A stretch of 33,343 bases of DNA from assembly GCA_030602785.1 (NCBI GenBank), contig JAUVZB010000004.1, positions 1 to 33,343 on the forward strand, read 5' to 3'. This stretch comes from Dehalococcoidia bacterium (GTDB taxonomy: Bacteria; Chloroflexota; Dehalococcoidia; GIF9; AB-539-J10). Of the stretch, positions 181 through 12,940 are shown piece by piece. Below the pieces are notes generated by a model. That model made no database searches, was not told where the DNA came from, and worked only from the letters and a program-made list of their open reading frames with translations. Positions within the stretch are counted from its first letter, which is position 1. The number at the start of each line of letters is the position of its first letter. Made by a program: the position numbers and the translations under genes.

Positions 181-1518
181 CTACAGGATTGGCAGGTAGC
201 GATTGATCTCGTATTCCGTCACCTGGGTACTGTACTCGTGCCACTCTATCTTCTTGTTCTGAATGAAGGCTTCGAAGACGTGGTCACCGAGAGCCTTCCG
301 CAGGAGTTCACTGCTTTCGGCCACCTGGATTGCCTCGTACAGATTCGCAGGCAGCGTCGCGATACCTCGGTCCTTTCTCTCCTGTTCCGTCATGAGGTAG
401 ACGTTCTCTTGGACGGGTTCGGGACACTCGTATCCCTTTTCGATGCCCTCCAGCCCTGCAGCCAGCATCACAGAGAAAGCCAGGTACGGGTTGCACGCCG
501 GGTCGGGAGACCGCAGTTCCAGGCGCGTGGCGTTCTCGTTGCCGGGCTTGTAGCCTGGAACGCGGATGAGGTCAGCCCTGTTGCGGCGAGCCCACGACAG
601 ATACACCGGCGCCTCGTACCCGGGGACAAGCCGCTTGTAAGAGTTCACCCACTGGTTGGTGACTGCAGTGAATTCCGGCGCGTGTCTCAGAAGACCCGCG
701 ATGAAGCTGCGTGCTGTCTCCGACAGGTAGTACTCTCCGTTGCGGTCGAAGAACGCATTTCGGCCATCTTTGAAGAGCGACTGGTGAACATGCATGCCGC
801 TCCCGTTGATGCCGAAAACCGGCTTGGGCATGAAGCTGGCATGGACTCCGTGGGCCAACGCGATCTGCTTCACCACCAGCCGGTAGGTCATCACGTTGTC
901 CGCCATCGTCAACGCATCCGTGTAGCGTACGTCAATCTCATGCTGGCTTCCGGCGACTTCGTGGTGCGAGTATTCCACGCCGATCCCCATCTCCTCGAGC
1001 GTCAGCACCGTCTCGCGCCTGAGGTCCGTCGCCAGGTCGAGCGGTGTCATGTCGAAATAGCCGCCCTCGTCGAGCCCTTCTGTAGAGTACTTGTCCTTGA
1101 AGTAGAAGTACTCCAGCTCGGGTCCGACGTAGTAGGTGTAGCCAAGGTCGGCCGCTCGCTGCAGGTTTCTCTTCAGCACGAAACGCGGATCACCATCGAA
1201 TGCGGTCCCCTCCGGTTTGATGATGTCACAGAACATCCGCGCAACAGCATGCTGCTCCTTGGGCCGCCAGGGTAGTAACTGGAACGTCTCCGGCTCCGGC
1301 AGCGCCATCATGTCGCTCTCGTCTATCCGTGTGAACCCCTCGATAGATGAGCCGTCGAACCCCATCCCTTCCTCAAGAGCGCCTTCCAGTTCCTCCACGG
1401 TAATCGCGAAACTCTTCAGAAAGCCGAGAATATCGGTGAACCACAGGCGAATGAACTTGACGTCGTGCTCCTTTGCCGTCTTGAGCACATACTCATTTGC
1501 TTCGTTCCTGCTTCTCAT
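181..1518 (-). CDS. glnA: Type I glutamine synthetase (GSI-alpha type)
   Basis: This enzyme makes glutamine from glutamate, ammonia and ATP in the cytosol and is the main entry point for ammonium. The 445-aa product has the expected GSI motifs: FDGSSIEGF near residue 54, metal-binding E134/E136 in GPELEYFYF, NGSGMHVHQS and the ELRSPDPACNPYLA stretch. The length fits GSI. It has no extra ~25-residue insert and no typical adenylylation-site segment, which points to the alpha subtype, controlled by transcription or feedback rather than by adenylylation. I chose the ATG at 1518 because GGAGG sits about 10 nt upstream and family homology starts here; the reading frame continues 55 codons further upstream without support. 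A GlnR-like box lies 80 bp upstream. It follows gatB after 151 bp. Confidence 0.97.
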   Translation of the reverse strand: MRSRNEANEYVLKTAKEHDVKFIRLWFTDILGFLKSFAITVEELEGALEEGMGFDGSSIEGFTRIDESDMMALPEPETFQLLPWRPKEQHAVARMFCDIIKPEGTAFDGDPRFVLKRNLQRAADLGYTYYVGPELEYFYFKDKYSTEGLDEGGYFDMTPLDLATDLRRETVLTLEEMGIGVEYSHHEVAGSQHEIDVRYTDALTMADNVMTYRLVVKQIALAHGVHASFMPKPVFGINGSGMHVHQSLFKDGRNAFFDRNGEYYLSETARSFIAGLLRHAPEFTAVTNQWVNSYKRLVPGYEAPVYLSWARRNRADLIRVPGYKPGNENATRLELRSPDPACNPYLAFSVMLAAGLEGIEKGYECPEPVQENVYLMTEQERKDRGIATLPANLYEAIQVAESSELLRKALGDHVFEAFIQNKKIEWHEYSTQVTEYEINRYLPIL

Positions 1519-1597
1519 GGCCGCCTTTCCTCCTTCATGTTGTGTGTGCGTACGTCGCAGCACATTCTTCAATCTGTCCACATTGTCGGACGCCAGT

Positions 1598-1613
1598 GTT
1601 ACGGATGCGTTAC
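1598..1613 (-). promoter_or_regulatory. Candidate GlnR-type operator upstream of glnA
   Basis: On the minus strand this reads GTAAC-GCATCC-GTAAC, two 5-bp half-sites 11 bp apart. That is the spacing of OmpR-family binding and close to the actinobacterial GlnR pattern gTnAC-n6-GaAAC. It lies 80 bp upstream of the glnA start, and a GlnR-like regulator is encoded 1.9 kb away. The assignment as its binding site is inference. Confidence 0.5.
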
Positions 1614-1669
1614 ACAGGCATTGCAACTGTGTGAAATACCTGGCCCGCCGCACCCGCCTCTGCTCGGCT

Positions 1670-3112
1670 TCAGGCCAACTCACGCTGCAGCAGATCGCGC
1701 GTCAGGCCGGGATTCGCCCGCCCGCGCGTCAATCGCATCACTTGACCTGTCAGGAACATGATGGACTGCTCCTTGCCGGCCTTGTAGTCGGCAACGGCCC
1801 CGGGGTTGTCGGCAATTGCCTGCCGCACCGCGGACAGAAGTTCATCGGACCCGCTGATCTGATCGAGGTTCTGTTCCTTAATGATCTCGGCAGGCGCCTT
1901 GCCTGACCTGAACATTTCGTCCAGCACGGACTTCGAGGAGGGACCGCTCAGCACGCCCTTCTGCACCAGGTCCAACAACTGCGCAAGCCCCTCCGGCCAA
2001 AGATGGCTGTCGGAGATATCCACGTTGGCGGTGTTGAGCAGGCGGCTCACGTCACCCAGTATCCAGTTCGAAAGAGCGTGCCCGTGGCTCGCGCCCGCGG
2101 TCGTAACGGACTCCTCGAAGAAATCGGCGAGTGTCCTTGAAGACACGAGTGTCCCCGCGTCGGGAGGGGGGACACCGTACGTCTCTATGAATCTTGCCTT
2201 GCGTGCGTCCGGCAGTTCCGGCAGGCGTGCCCTGACTTCCTCTACCCATTCCTGGCTCAGCACCAGCGGAGGCAGGTCTGGTTCAGGGAAGTAGCGGTAG
2301 TCGTCCGCGTATTCCTTGCTTCTCTGTGAAACGGTTACGCCCTCAGCCTCAAGCCAGCCCATGGTCTCCTGCTTCAGGCTGCCCCCGGCCTGAAGGACCT
2401 GCACCTGTCGCTGCTGTTCGTACTTGAGGGCTCGGTAGACGCCGCGGAAGCTGTTCATGTTCTTCACTTCCACCTTGGCGCCAAGCTCTGTGGAGCCGAT
2501 AGGGCGGAGACTGATGTTTGCGTCGCAGCGGAAGCTGCCCTCTTCCATGTTGCCCGTTGACACACCGATATACCTCAGGAGTGTCCGCAGTTTGACGAGG
2601 TATTCACGCGCTTCCTCGGGAGACCTCATGTCGGGCTCGCTGACTGTCTCCATGAGGGGCACTCCCGAGCGGTTGACGTCTATCAGGCTGCAGCCCTGCA
2701 TGTGAAACGACTTGGCCACATCCTCCTCGAGGTGGACGCGCGTGATACCTATTCGCCTGGCCTGACCATCGACTTCGATATCGAGCCAGCCCTTGTGTCC
2801 GATAGGGGCGTCGTACTGCGAAATCTGGTATCCCTTCATCAGGTCAGGATAGAAGTAGCTCTTCCGGTCGAAGCGCGTACTGGCGGGCAAGTCGCAATGC
2901 AGCGCCAGCGCGGTCATCATGACGTACTCGATGGCGTGCCTGTTTGCTACCGGTAGTGTCCCCGGCATCCCCAGACAGATCGGACACACATGAGTGTTCG
3001 GCGGGCTGTCCATGTAGTCCGTCGAGCAGCCGCAGAACATCTTGCTCTCGGTGACCAGCTGCGCGTGTACTTCCAGACCGATTACCGTCTCATATCCGCT
3101 ACTGTCAGTCAT
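1670..3112 (-). CDS. gatB: Asp-tRNA(Asn)/Glu-tRNA(Gln) amidotransferase subunit B
   Basis: GatB is the kinase and tRNA-binding subunit of the GatCAB complex, which converts misacylated Glu-tRNA(Gln) and/or Asp-tRNA(Asn) to the amide form using glutamine. The 480-aa product starts with IGLEVHAQL and has the zinc-site cysteines C27/C29 and C43/C46, the ARTxFDRKSYFYPDLMKGYQ-type core (here STRFDRKSYFYPDLMKGYQ) and KVEVKNMNSFR. The C-terminal YqeY-like tail ends normally. The ATG at 3112 has GGAGAGG about 8 nt upstream. It is separated from gatA/gatC, which lie near 16.6-18.4 kb, and sits instead with glnA, the source of the glutamine it needs. The 279-bp gap upstream suggests its own promoter. 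Confidence 0.97.
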   Translation of the reverse strand: MTDSSGYETVIGLEVHAQLVTESKMFCGCSTDYMDSPPNTHVCPICLGMPGTLPVANRHAIEYVMMTALALHCDLPASTRFDRKSYFYPDLMKGYQISQYDAPIGHKGWLDIEVDGQARRIGITRVHLEEDVAKSFHMQGCSLIDVNRSGVPLMETVSEPDMRSPEEAREYLVKLRTLLRYIGVSTGNMEEGSFRCDANISLRPIGSTELGAKVEVKNMNSFRGVYRALKYEQQRQVQVLQAGGSLKQETMGWLEAEGVTVSQRSKEYADDYRYFPEPDLPPLVLSQEWVEEVRARLPELPDARKARFIETYGVPPPDAGTLVSSRTLADFFEESVTTAGASHGHALSNWILGDVSRLLNTANVDISDSHLWPEGLAQLLDLVQKGVLSGPSSKSVLDEMFRSGKAPAEIIKEQNLDQISGSDELLSAVRQAIADNPGAVADYKAGKEQSIMFLTGQVMRLTRGRANPGLTRDLLQRELA

Positions 3113-3391: not shown

Positions 3392-4066
3392 CTACGCCTG
3401 CTTGCGAAAACGGTAGCCGATGTTGCGGACAGTATCGATGAATGTATGTTCGGCATCCTCGATCTTGCTCCTCAGCCTTCTTACATGCACATCTACGGTC
3501 CGGTCGCCGCCGTAGTAGTCGTAGCCCCAGACTCCATCCAGCAGGGACTCCCGGGTATGCACACGTGCAGGGCGACCCGCGAGGAACTTCAGCAGTTCGT
3601 ACTCCTTGTACGTAAGCTCTATCAGTCGGCCGTCCAGTGTCACCTCGCAGGTGGCCGTGTTGATTACGAGAGCGCCACGACGCATGACATCCGGGCTATC
3701 CGCGCTGGCGCTGAGCAGGCGGCGGATACGCGCCCTCAACTCCGGGCCTGATGCTGTTGTAGCTGCGAAATCGTCGGCCGCAAGATGAGGCCCGACGGAC
3801 TCCAGCAATTCGGCGCTGACGACAACGAGGACGGGACACCGGACACGCCTCTTGACCTTCGATAGCAGGTCCGTCAGTTCGTCTGCGGCGATGGCCCTGA
3901 CAACAACCGTGGAGGGAGCAGGGCGCGGGAGAGACTCAAGGCCGTTTTCTCCTACCAGGACCTCTCCAAGACCCGGGTCGAGCAACCGGAGTTCGCGCAC
4001 AAGGTGTGGATCCGAGTGGCGCTCACGCGCAACAAGGACGATGTGTGGTGAATACCTGTCGCTCAC
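3392..4066 (-). CDS. GlnR-like orphan OmpR-family transcriptional regulator
   Basis: This 224-aa protein has a degenerate receiver domain (about 1-120) and a C-terminal winged-helix DNA-binding domain (about 128-222). The winged helix carries YKEYELLKFL, VWGYDYYGG, RTVDVHVRRLR and TVRNIGYRF, closely matching the actinobacterial nitrogen regulator GlnR. The receiver has no acidic pair near its start and no phospho-acceptor aspartate at the expected position, where VVVRA is found, as is usual for GlnR-type orphan regulators. No histidine kinase is nearby. The GTG start at 4066 is the only in-frame choice after an upstream stop, 10 bp after the GltB3 gene, so it is probably translationally coupled. 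It probably controls nitrogen genes in this cluster; a matching box precedes glnA. GlnR identity is inferred from motif likeness and context. Confidence 0.88.
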   Translation of the reverse strand: MSDRYSPHIVLVARERHSDPHLVRELRLLDPGLGEVLVGENGLESLPRPAPSTVVVRAIAADELTDLLSKVKRRVRCPVLVVVSAELLESVGPHLAADDFAATTASGPELRARIRRLLSASADSPDVMRRGALVINTATCEVTLDGRLIELTYKEYELLKFLAGRPARVHTRESLLDGVWGYDYYGGDRTVDVHVRRLRSKIEDAEHTFIDTVRNIGYRFRKQA

Positions 4067-4076
4067 TGTCTACGCA

Positions 4077-4844
4077 CTAGTAGGCGTACAGTCGCCCATA
4101 CGGTCGCAGATGCAGGGGGTACAGCTTCGTGAAGTCGGCAGCGAGAATGTCCCCTGCCGGCATTTCAAAACTGGTTGCGTAACGTCCGACGGCATCTTCG
4201 AGAACCCGTCTGTCGTCTGCGGCCAGCGAGGCAACGCCCACTTCCTTTCCAAGCTGGTGGCTCTCCACGCTGCCGCGCAAGTAGATAACTCCACCATGCA
4301 TTCCTGTACCAATGAAACGAGCATGGCTCCGGGCAACACGTGGTCGCATCAATCCTAGCACGACCAGGACGCCACCTGCCATGTATTCCCCGAGGAAATC
4401 CTGCGCCGCACCGCCGATGACGATGACAGGGCGCCTGTCCTCGTATTCTTTCATGTGAATGCCCGCGCGATAGCCGGCGCCATCACGCACCAGAATGATT
4501 CCACCGCGTGCGGCAAGGCCGAGCGCATCGCCCGCATGTCCATGCACGATGATCGAGCCCTGATTCATCGTGTTTCCCACTCCGTCCTGGCCGCTGCCTC
4601 GCACGGTGATGGTCGGGCCGTCCATGAATGCCCCCAGATCGTTGCCCGGAGTTCCCTGGAGTTCCAGGTGCACATCGCCGCGCAGGTTCGTTCCAATATA
4701 GCGTTGACCGTTGACGTTCCGCACGGCGATCTGCTTCACACCTTCCTGCGCAAGCCCGGTCAATGCCGTGTTCAATTCCCTGTAGGACAGGCCAAGAGCG
4801 TCAATCTCCATGAATCCCTTGCTTGTGAGCTCTGTATTGTCCAT
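4077..4844 (-). CDS. Archaeal-type glutamate synthase GXGXG subunit (GltB3-like)
   Basis: The 255-aa product is the stand-alone version of the C-terminal beta-helix (GXGXG) domain of glutamate synthase large chains. Glycine-rich turns repeat from about residue 60 to 190, for example GSIIVHGHAGDALG, GGIILVRDGAGYRAG and GGVLVVLGL. In fused GOGATs this domain is structural and spaces the ammonia tunnel between the glutaminase and FMN domains. The related FwdC subunit of formylmethanofuran dehydrogenase has the same fold, but the neighbours point clearly to glutamate synthase. The ATG at 4844 follows the GltB2 stop after a single base, so the two are surely coupled and made in similar amounts. 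Confidence 0.93.
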   Translation of the reverse strand: MDNTELTSKGFMEIDALGLSYRELNTALTGLAQEGVKQIAVRNVNGQRYIGTNLRGDVHLELQGTPGNDLGAFMDGPTITVRGSGQDGVGNTMNQGSIIVHGHAGDALGLAARGGIILVRDGAGYRAGIHMKEYEDRRPVIVIGGAAQDFLGEYMAGGVLVVLGLMRPRVARSHARFIGTGMHGGVIYLRGSVESHQLGKEVGVASLAADDRRVLEDAVGRYATSFEMPAGDILAADFTKLYPLHLRPYGRLYAY

Positions 4845-4845
4845 A

Positions 4846-6348
4846 TCAGCTACCTGCCATTCTCACGCCAAGAATGTCCAGTTCAGTATCCGTCAGGCCC
4901 ACACCTCTGAGATGCAGCCGGTTTCCTCTGAGGCTTTCGATGGCGTTGACCCCCATTCCTCCGAGAATGTCCTTGATCTCGAGGCTCCAACCACGTACCA
5001 GATTGACGAGCCTCTCTGCGCCCAACTCCGGGTTGATGCGCTTGGTCAACGCAGGATCGCTGGTGCAAATGCCCCACGCGCATTTTCCCGTATGGCATTG
5101 CTGGCACACGTGGCACCCGAGAGCTATCAGCGCTGCGGTGCCAATGTTGACGGCGTCGGCGCCAAGTGCAATCGCCTTGGCCACATCTCCGCTGGAACGT
5201 ATGCCACCCGACGCCACGATGGAAGCCTGGTTGCGTATCCCTTCCTGGCGAAGGCGGGTATCGACCGACGCCAGGGCGAGTTCAATCGGAATGCCTACGT
5301 TATCACGTATTGCCTTGGGAGCTGCGCCGGTGGCGCCCCGTAGCCCATCGATGACGATGATGTCCGCGCCGGCACGCACCATGCCACTCGCGATTGCTGC
5401 CGTGTTGTGAACGGCCGCGATTTTCACTGACACCGGCTTTGTGTACTCAGTCGCCTCTTTGATGGCGTAGATGAGCTGCCTGAGGTCCTCAATTGAGTAG
5501 ATATCGTGGTGCGGTGCGGGCGACAACGCATCGGTACCCGCCGGAATCATTCGGGTCCTGGAGACATCATCCGTCACTTTCTCGCCGGGAAGATGCCCTC
5601 CGATCCCCGGTTTTGCACCCTGGCCTATCTTGATCTCGATAATCTGCGGCGCTCTCAGGTACTCGGAGTACACTCCGAAGCGTCCGGACGCCACCTGCAC
5701 GATGGTATTCGGAGCGTACTTCGCCAGAGATGGGTGGAGCCCACCTTCCCCCGTGTTCCACAGCGTCCCGAGTTCCGTAGCAGCTCGGGCCAGCGACTGT
5801 TGTACGCGGAGGCTTACAGCTCCGTATGACATGGCGGAGAACATGATTGGCGTCTCAATCTTGACCTGTGGCGCGAAAGGAGTCTTCACGCGCCCGGAGG
5901 CGTCGAACTCGACCCGCTCCGGCTTGCGACCGAGGTAGGTGCTGAGCTCCATCGGTTCCCGCAGAGGGTCGATTGAAGGATTCGTGACCTGACTCGCATT
6001 CAAGAGTAGATGGTCAAAGTAGATGGGGTAGGGTTTGTCACTGCCCATGCCTGTCAGGAGCATGCCCCCTGTCTCGGCTTGTTTCAGGATGTCTTCGATG
6101 ACCTCTGCTCGCCAGTTGGCATTGGTCCGGTATTCGAGCGGATTCCGCCGAACAGTGAGAGCATTTGTTGGGCAGAAGGCTACGCACCGGTGACAGTCAA
6201 CGCAGTTCTCCTCGCGGCTCTTGACGACCCCTTCTTCCTCATCGAAATAGTTCGCATCGAAGGTGCACTGGTTGACACACACCTTGCATTGAATACATCG
6301 ATTCGGGTCGCGCTCGACCACATAGACTGATGGAAGGTAGCTCTTCAT
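4846..6348 (-). CDS. Archaeal-type glutamate synthase FMN subunit with N-terminal 2[4Fe-4S] ferredoxin (GltB2-like)
   Basis: This subunit carries out the synthase half reaction: ammonia plus 2-oxoglutarate plus two electrons give glutamate at an FMN. The 500-aa protein opens with two ferredoxin motifs (C18/21/24/28 and C49/52/55/59) and then the GOGAT central barrel. Visible motifs are IGQGAKPGIGGHLPGEKV at 241-258, IDGLRGATGAAP at 333-344 and the 3Fe-4S cluster region C412-C428 (CQQCHTGKCAWGICT). The ferredoxin domain suggests electrons arrive from iron-sulphur carriers rather than directly from NADPH. It sits between hisF and GltB3, 10 bp and 1 bp away. The ATG at 6348 has only a weak AGGAT ribosome site. 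Confidence 0.95.
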   Translation of the reverse strand: MKSYLPSVYVVERDPNRCIQCKVCVNQCTFDANYFDEEEGVVKSREENCVDCHRCVAFCPTNALTVRRNPLEYRTNANWRAEVIEDILKQAETGGMLLTGMGSDKPYPIYFDHLLLNASQVTNPSIDPLREPMELSTYLGRKPERVEFDASGRVKTPFAPQVKIETPIMFSAMSYGAVSLRVQQSLARAATELGTLWNTGEGGLHPSLAKYAPNTIVQVASGRFGVYSEYLRAPQIIEIKIGQGAKPGIGGHLPGEKVTDDVSRTRMIPAGTDALSPAPHHDIYSIEDLRQLIYAIKEATEYTKPVSVKIAAVHNTAAIASGMVRAGADIIVIDGLRGATGAAPKAIRDNVGIPIELALASVDTRLRQEGIRNQASIVASGGIRSSGDVAKAIALGADAVNIGTAALIALGCHVCQQCHTGKCAWGICTSDPALTKRINPELGAERLVNLVRGWSLEIKDILGGMGVNAIESLRGNRLHLRGVGLTDTELDILGVRMAGS

Positions 6349-6358
6349 TTGCTTTATC

Positions 6359-7126
6359 CTATAGCCTCACTGCGACGTTCCTGGCCTGCAGGAATAGCTT
6401 GATGTCCTGGATACCAGTCTCACGATAGTGAAAAATGCTGGCTGCAAGTACTGCATCGGCTTTGCCCAACTCCAGAACCTCATACAGGTCCTGTGCTGAA
6501 CCTGCCCCCCCGCTGGCGATGACGGGTATGGAGACACTTGTCGAAACGGCTCGAGTCAGATGCACGTCGTAGCCCGTCTTGTGCCCGTCGGCATCCATGC
6601 TTGTCAGTAGAATCTCACCCGCGCCAAGTTCGGCTGCCCGCCCTGCCCATTCTACGGCGTCGATGGCTCTGGCCACACTACCACCGTATGTGTGTACCTG
6701 CCACCGCAGTGGCTCGGATCCGGCCACTCTCTTCGCGTCGATGGCCACGACCACGCACTGACTGCCGAACCGGTCGGCGGCACATCGAATGAGGTCCGGG
6801 TTCTGCACGGCGGCTGTGTTCACGGACACTTTGTCCGCTCCGCTCAGCAGCATCCGCCGCATGTCCTCCACCGTTCGCAGTCCTCCACCAACCGTCAGGG
6901 GGATGAAGACGACGTGCGCGATTCGTTCGACCACCTCCGCCATCGTCTGCCTGTGTTCCTTGCTCGCAGTGATATCAAGGAAGACCAGCTCGTCTGCCCC
7001 TTCGTCGTAGTAGCGCTGCGCCAGTTCGACAGGGTCGCCCGAGTCCCGAAGAGACTCGAAACTCTTGCCTTTCACCACCCGTCCGTCCTTGACGTCCAGG
7101 CAGGGAATAATGCGCTTAGTGAGCAC
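6359..7126 (-). CDS. hisF: Imidazole glycerol phosphate synthase cyclase subunit HisF
   Basis: HisF joins ammonia from HisH with PRFAR to form imidazole glycerol phosphate and AICAR in histidine synthesis. The 255-aa TIM barrel has the catalytic aspartates D11 ([13 protein letters not shown]) and D130 (VAIDAKR), plus the phosphate-binding loops VGGGLR and ASGGAG. I chose the GTG at 7126: it gives the normal HisF length and starts at the family's [17 protein letters not shown] lies about 9 nt upstream and the start overlaps the end of the upstream glutaminase gene by 11 bp. The open frame extends 58 codons further upstream without homology. It is separated from hisH by two GOGAT-type genes, and no other his genes are in view. 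Confidence 0.97.
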
Positions 7127-12911: not shown

Positions 12912-12940
12912 ACGTTAACATGCTGTTGGCACCATGTCAA
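12912..12940 (-). promoter_or_regulatory. Promoter of the nitrogen/GOGAT cluster
   Basis: On the minus strand TTGACA (12935-12940) is followed after 17 bp by TGT-TAACGT (-10 at 12912-12917), an extended -10 form. The predicted transcript starts near 12905, about 50 nt before the polyferredoxin start. A loose pair CCAAC-N6-TTAAC overlaps the spacer and -10 and could be a degenerate GlnR-type site. Confidence 0.5.

Follow-up and report, generated by a model that had tools for sequence, protein, structure and literature searches.

The direct repeat in front of glnA in the window (the whole 33,343-nt stretch of Dehalococcoidia DNA that was analysed) is best explained as belonging to an operator of four half-sites that would serve the GlnR-family regulator encoded at 3392-4066. 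Judged from sequence comparisons, this regulator would be a kinase-independent activator of glnA and amtB-glnB, and in two closed genomes of nifH as well, bound head to tail in the place of a -35 element. We assign this reading a probability of about 0.88. The first-pass annotation had proposed that the repeat joins the regulator to glutamine synthesis in an organism outside Actinobacteria, and a conserved array, a genome scan and the placement of the protein in the GlnR family all point in that direction. The features are collected in Table 1.

Table 1. Features of the glnA operator region, its putative regulator and related loci
Feature	Position	Strand	Remarks
Four-half-site operator TTCAC-N6-GCAAT-N6-GTAAC-N6-GTAAC	1598..1635	-	11-bp period, direct repeats; from sequence and conservation in relatives
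Half-site 1, TTCAC	1631..1635	-	TTCAC/TTTAC/TTCAT in same-genus glnA promoters
Half-site 2, GCAAT	1620..1624	-	
Half-site 3, GTAAC	1609..1613	-	
Half-site 4, GTAAC	1598..1602	-	
-10-like hexamer GACAAT	1582..1587	-	First base exactly 10 nt past half-site 4
glnA, type I glutamine synthetase	181..1518	-	Presumed target; Pfam Gln-synt_C/N, NCBIfam TIGR00653 above cut-off
GlnR-family regulator	3392..4066	-	OmpR-type DNA-binding domain, degenerate receiver; presumed operator binder
GOGAT genes (GXGXG subunit and Fe-S glutamate synthase)	4077..6348	-	Directly upstream of regulator; conserved neighbours
AmtB gene	C90:3455-4669		Sole one in the window's genome
P-II gene (glnB)	C90:3060-3380		Sole one in the window's genome
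G001 glnA array			TTCAC-GTAAC-GAAAC-GAAAC
G002 glnA array			TTCAT-GCAAC-GAAAC-GTAAC
G003 glnA array			TTCAC-GCAAC-GAAAC-GAAAC
G005 glnA array			TTTAC-GTAAC-GAAAC-GCAAC
G006 glnA array			TTCAC-GTAAT-GAAAC-GTAAC

On the minus strand, from 1635 down to 1582, the sequence upstream of glnA reads TTCACacagttGCAATgcctgtGTAACgcatccGTAAC-ACTGGCGTCC-GACAAT. The GTAAC-N6-GTAAC motif reported at 1598-1613 is present and ends 79 nt ahead of the glnA ATG (1516-1518, minus strand), which is preceded by a GGAGG ribosome site. The motif is real, but its description as a two-half-site operator was too narrow: the full array comprises four half-sites, and the reported pair is its promoter-proximal half. Transcription of glnA is predicted to start near 1575; with the ATG at 1518-1516, the leader would be slightly under 60 nt long.

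The two-half-site repeat alone is weak evidence, its frequency in the genome being no higher than chance. The exact GTAAC-N6-GTAAC pattern has three copies in the 2.57-Mb genome versus four for a reversed control, and 46 of 100 shuffled windows contain at least one match with up to one mismatch to the two-half-site consensus. For want of enrichment, the exact 16-bp repeat was rejected as sole evidence; its other copies (C24:43819 and C36:57929) have no nitrogen gene in the ORF maps inspected. The three-half-site pattern matches the window once (1598-1624), versus 0.03 matches expected. Four exact matches to it occur in the window's genome, one of them in a tRNA-like stretch and another (C56:47373) without a nitrogen gene. 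On a half-site matrix trained solely on the amtB operators of another family (f2), the glnA array scores 20.6 bits and, its copy shifted by one unit aside, nothing in the 33 kb exceeds 2.0. One training operator (L092) was registered one unit off, the effect of which is small because half-sites are pooled in the matrix. The degenerate pair CCAAC-N6-TTAAC at 12914-12929, earlier pointed out at the promoter of the GOGAT cluster, fails to score as a site and, being absent from the list of matches above 2 bits, was discarded as a GOGAT operator. Neither did the scan find, within the window, an array belonging to the GOGAT genes next to the regulator (4077-6348).

For a wider comparison, 60 related genomes were searched for glnA and the regulator, and their loci were compared. 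The first-pass annotation expected a genuine operator to be conserved before orthologous glnA genes, and the array is indeed present in all same-genus glnA promoters not led by amtB, namely in the window and in G001, G002, G003, G005 and G006, with diverged spacers between the half-sites. In G004, amtB lies between the regulator and gatB-glnA, and the array is found ahead of amtB, with which the amtB-gatB-glnA run begins. The same-genus glnA promoters score 18-22 bits on the f2 matrix versus shuffle means of about -5 to -10, with p at the floor set by 200 shuffles. Across Dehalococcoidia the array is located ahead of amtB or glnA, and in the rest of the order and class the genes are mostly arranged as hisF - GOGAT genes - (nrpR) - regulator - array - amtB - glnB - glnA. 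Within the window's genus gatB (1670-3112 in the window) sits between regulator and glnA, the position held by amtB-glnB in most other genomes. At the amtB promoters of Dehalococcoides- and Dehalogenimonas-like genomes there are five or six consecutive half-sites rather than four (L271 from 7690 on the minus strand, L275, L286). Family f2 carries, directly before the GlnR-type regulator, an NrpR-like homologue of the archaeal nitrogen repressor type, labelled without a profile test (L086 3415-4416, L096 1277-2284, L098 1398-2396 and others), which suggests the presence of two nitrogen regulators in one cluster.

The promoter geometry is strict. The consensus of 72 distinct arrays, GTAAC-N6-[T/G]TAAC-N6-GTAAT-N6-GAAAC, reproduces the actinobacterial-type operator gTnAC-n6-GaAAC in two tandem copies at glnA/amtB. 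In 65 of these arrays TAnnnT starts exactly 10 nt past the last half-site, every other offset being seen at most 7 times. The literature half-site G.AAC, which does not depend on the matrix, gives a similar picture: upstream of amtB, glnB and glnA, sense-strand pairs at offsets 11, 22 and 33 number 24, 20 and 28, versus 0-8 at other offsets, and antisense pairs in the same regions show no excess. In 61 of the 67 named loci, the highest-scoring array anywhere in the locus is found at most 350 bp upstream of amtB, glnB or glnA, where 4.9% of positions qualify. The array stands in for the -35 element, which argues for activation.

Sixteen whole genomes were scanned with a composite pattern in which three half-sites are followed by N10 and nAnnnT. 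Only two places in the window's genome match it, the glnA and amtB-glnB promoters, versus none for the control, and the genome scan recommended earlier thus singles out these two promoters alone. The amtB-glnB match (C90:4871-4913) falls on a second array, TTAAC-N6-GTAAC-N6-GCAAC-N6-GCAAT (C90:4887-4924), with CACACT as a poor -10 hexamer. The first-pass statement that no second clear copy exists therefore holds within the window and not for the genome. Judged from site position alone, the targets glnA, amtB and glnB are those of actinobacterial GlnR. In the other genomes the pattern is found at amtB and glnA promoters, at nifH in G090 and at the promoter of a second, nif-linked regulator in G108; some matches are without a nitrogen gene. 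Those near a zinc-type binding protein (L331) and a phosphate-type cluster (L329), as well as those within coding regions (L315, L334, L320, L335), were judged to be due to chance or to other regulators.

The nif-linked regulator of G108 is a second GlnR-type paralogue (L287, 9645-10334, minus strand) that heads a mod-nif cluster. Its own promoter contains GTAAT-N6-GTAAT-N6-GTAAT, followed after 10 nt by TATCAT, and at the nifH promoter of this genome (L287, about 6680-6739, minus strand) a run of half-sites ends 10 nt before TAAAGT. In a second closed genome, G090, the nifH promoter (L327; G090:C1:564098-564140, minus strand) has the half-sites GTAAC-TTAAT-GTAAT-GAAAT, then 10 nt and TATAAT.

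The assignment of the 3392-4066 product to the GlnR family is supported by a tree, by the best structural match and by the recognition helix. The protein has an OmpR/PhoB-type C-terminal DNA-binding domain (Trans_reg_C, 1.4e-26, and fold matches). Pfam GlnR_1st (PF21695) reaches 20.2 bits on its N-terminal half, under the cut-off of 27; the orthologue L075 is above it with 33.2 bits, and at E 0.01 the domain is recognised in 6 of 16 orthologues. Of the OmpR subfamilies compared, GlnR is the nearest to the protein: its nearest PDB sequences are GlnR (8hig, E 1.5e-34, versus 2.2e-25 for RegX3; 171 versus 153 bits by profile), and in a maximum-likelihood tree with two GlnR reference sequences, all Dehalococcoidia regulators, the nif-linked paralogue and both references lie on one side of a branch with 100/99 support, with RegX3, VbrR (7e1b) and 13 Chloroflexota paralogues on the other. 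GlnR falls inside the regulator group, beside the nif-linked paralogue, so the relationship may be one of one-to-one orthology, ancient paralogy or transfer. When GlnR is used as query, the regulator (in G282, the top profile hit) is the best match in 9 of the 11 genomes with such a gene, the window's genome among them. The exceptions are G108, where the nif-linked paralogue scores slightly above the orthologue, and G014, where another paralogue wins. The recognition helix is YYGGDRTVDVHVRRLRSKI versus FFGGTRTVDVHVRRLRAKL in GlnR, with most sampled paralogues reading WLRQK; over the stretch GGDRTVDVHVRRLRSKI it differs from GlnR, GGTRTVDVHVRRLRAKL, at three places. The AlphaFold model (mean pLDDT 82) has a receiver-like alpha/beta domain and a winged helix. 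In the fold search against the PDB, M. tuberculosis GlnR, as part of a transcription initiation complex, ranks first; the DNA-binding domain of S. erythraea GlnR gives a TM of 0.92 by target length.

By inspection, the receiver of the window and G006 copies no longer has its acidic pocket, phospho-aspartate or lysine; other orthologues keep Asp and Lys with a poor pocket. No Asp50/Arg52/Thr9 network like that of GlnR can be seen in the window copy, nor a kinase gene in the cluster maps of the compared loci. Since the phosphorylation residues are lost, the window regulator is probably not controlled by a histidine kinase.

The arrays also follow the regulator in their distribution. Among genomes with a readable glnA or amtB upstream region (300-bp windows), an array of at least 18 bits occurs in 28 of 30 with the regulator versus 1 of 19 without a good match to it; the nominal Fisher p of 3e-10 is too optimistic, given the shared ancestry of the genomes, but the trend is plain. 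The sole exception in the second group is G038, where the regulator is present in two frame-broken pieces (L100; G038:C17:7109-7632) and the array before amtB is kept. Two genomes with the regulator, G044 and G051, have no array in the 300-bp windows, and in G044 one is found elsewhere in the locus (L186). The named relatives are mostly Dehalococcoidia MAGs, and among 251 sampled Chloroflexota genomes, profile matches of at least 204 bits are confined to the class, with other classes reaching about 180. The regulator is also encoded in closed f5 genomes of 1.36-1.52 and 1.69-2.07 Mb, with arrays in most of those examined; these genomes are presumably Dehalococcoides (G108, 1,469,720 bp, strain 195) and Dehalogenimonas (G134, 1,686,510 bp). 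The same type of regulator with an array was seen on contigs binned as Deltaproteobacteria and Omnitrophota (L187, L224), owing either to misbinning or to transfer.

A chance match to a short consensus would account for the lack of enrichment of the exact pair and for the similar matches in about half of the shuffled windows, but for the full array it is refuted by four in-register, conserved half-sites at a fixed distance from the -10 and by their genome-wide restriction to glnA and amtB, and we regard it as very improbable. It is extremely improbable that the element is an inverted repeat bound by a dimeric regulator, of the CRP/NtcA type or another. The window site GTGTTACGGA/TGCGTTACAC is palindromic at 8 of 10 positions, but this partial symmetry is missing from glnA promoters of the same genus, for example GAAACACACCCGAAAC (L070), and half-site pairs occur in one orientation only. 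Relatives keep the direct repeat alone, and the palindromic reading was therefore discarded.

It is quite unlikely that the array, though real, serves a different OmpR-family protein of this organism (PhoB/PhoP/RegX3-like) and that the 3392-4066 product is a mere neighbour. PhoB binds head to tail on 11-bp direct repeats just upstream of the -10; such repeats are common to OmpR-family proteins, PhoB promoters use a similar distance to the -10, and half-site 1, TTCAC, resembles the PhoP core. However, other OmpR-family genes occur in nearly all genomes, while the arrays track the 3392-4066 orthologue with a broken copy as the exception, and nitrogen-gene targets, half-sites and recognition helix all fit GlnR. 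That the same regulator on the same operator represses glnA and amtB instead of activating them is rather unlikely. In M. smegmatis, GlnR can activate as well as repress transcription (PMC3662644), but an array that ends a constant 10 nt before the -10 and replaces the -35 is the layout expected of activator-dependent promoters.

In the preferred reading, an operator for a GlnR-family activator, four subunits would bind head to tail, with one DNA-binding domain per half-site, and cover the -35 region from about -61 to -23. The regulator would thus recruit RNA polymerase to a promoter without a -35 element of its own, and glnA and amtB-glnB may be switched on jointly under nitrogen shortage. 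One candidate for the signal is P-II, itself encoded by the same regulon.

The nearest known system is GlnR of the Actinobacteria (Streptomyces, Saccharopolyspora, Mycobacterium), also of the OmpR family, where tetrameric head-to-tail binding occurs on gTnAC-n6-GaAAC-n6-GtnAC-n6-GAAAC, in an a-b-a-b arrangement (PMC10704036). The tandem four-site layout at glnA and amtB of S. venezuelae is the same as here (PMC3087709). Alike are the winged-helix domain with an almost identical recognition helix, a receiver that appears atypical, glnA, amtB and glnB as targets, and an operator built from gTnAC/GaAAC half-sites 6 bp apart, of which glnA and amtB have four in a row. The system described here differs in its host outside Actinobacteria, in the location of the regulator inside a GOGAT-amtB-glnB-glnA cluster, in the window copy's receiver without acidic pocket, phospho-site and lysine, and in having nifH promoters among its sites in two closed genomes. 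Two sites are predicted in the window's genome, whereas for GlnR of S. venezuelae and M. smegmatis 36-53 bound regions are reported. PhoB/PhoP/RegX3-type regulators share the head-to-tail layout but have another half-site, other targets and canonical phosphorylated receivers. NblR, a starvation-linked atypical response regulator of cyanobacteria, is the best full-length NCBIfam match (NF045914, E 1.5e-30), but the score of 106.5 bits is far under the family cut-off of 300. GlnR and TnrA of Bacillus (MerR family) have only the common name and the nitrogen role and are unrelated as proteins; Pfam finds no MerR helix-turn-helix domain in the regulator, only Trans_reg_C and the weak GlnR_1st match.

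The open literature searched yielded no description of GlnR in Chloroflexota or Dehalococcoidia, nor of nitrogen-assimilation regulation in Dehalococcoidia, and the system is therefore regarded as new in the phylum. On the sequence evidence, the operator code and the presumed binding mode are those known from Actinobacteria, and what appears to be new is a member in another phylum with an unusually strict promoter layout. We lean towards the view that GlnR-type control is not an actinobacterial speciality and that Dehalococcoidia use it as a general nitrogen switch with a strict four-site, 10-nt geometry, and that in Dehalococcoides-type genomes the duplicated GlnR-type gene in the mod-nif cluster has extended this operator code to nitrogen fixation. 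Among the members of the class are the organohalide-respiring Dehalococcoides and Dehalogenimonas, which are used for groundwater clean-up, and the result puts forward a named candidate regulator, together with an explicit operator sequence, the spacing of the promoter elements and a few target genes that are testable in cultured strains. A receiver-degenerate relative of GlnR outside Actinobacteria may also help to locate the parts of GlnR that transmit the nitrogen signal and to estimate the age of the system.
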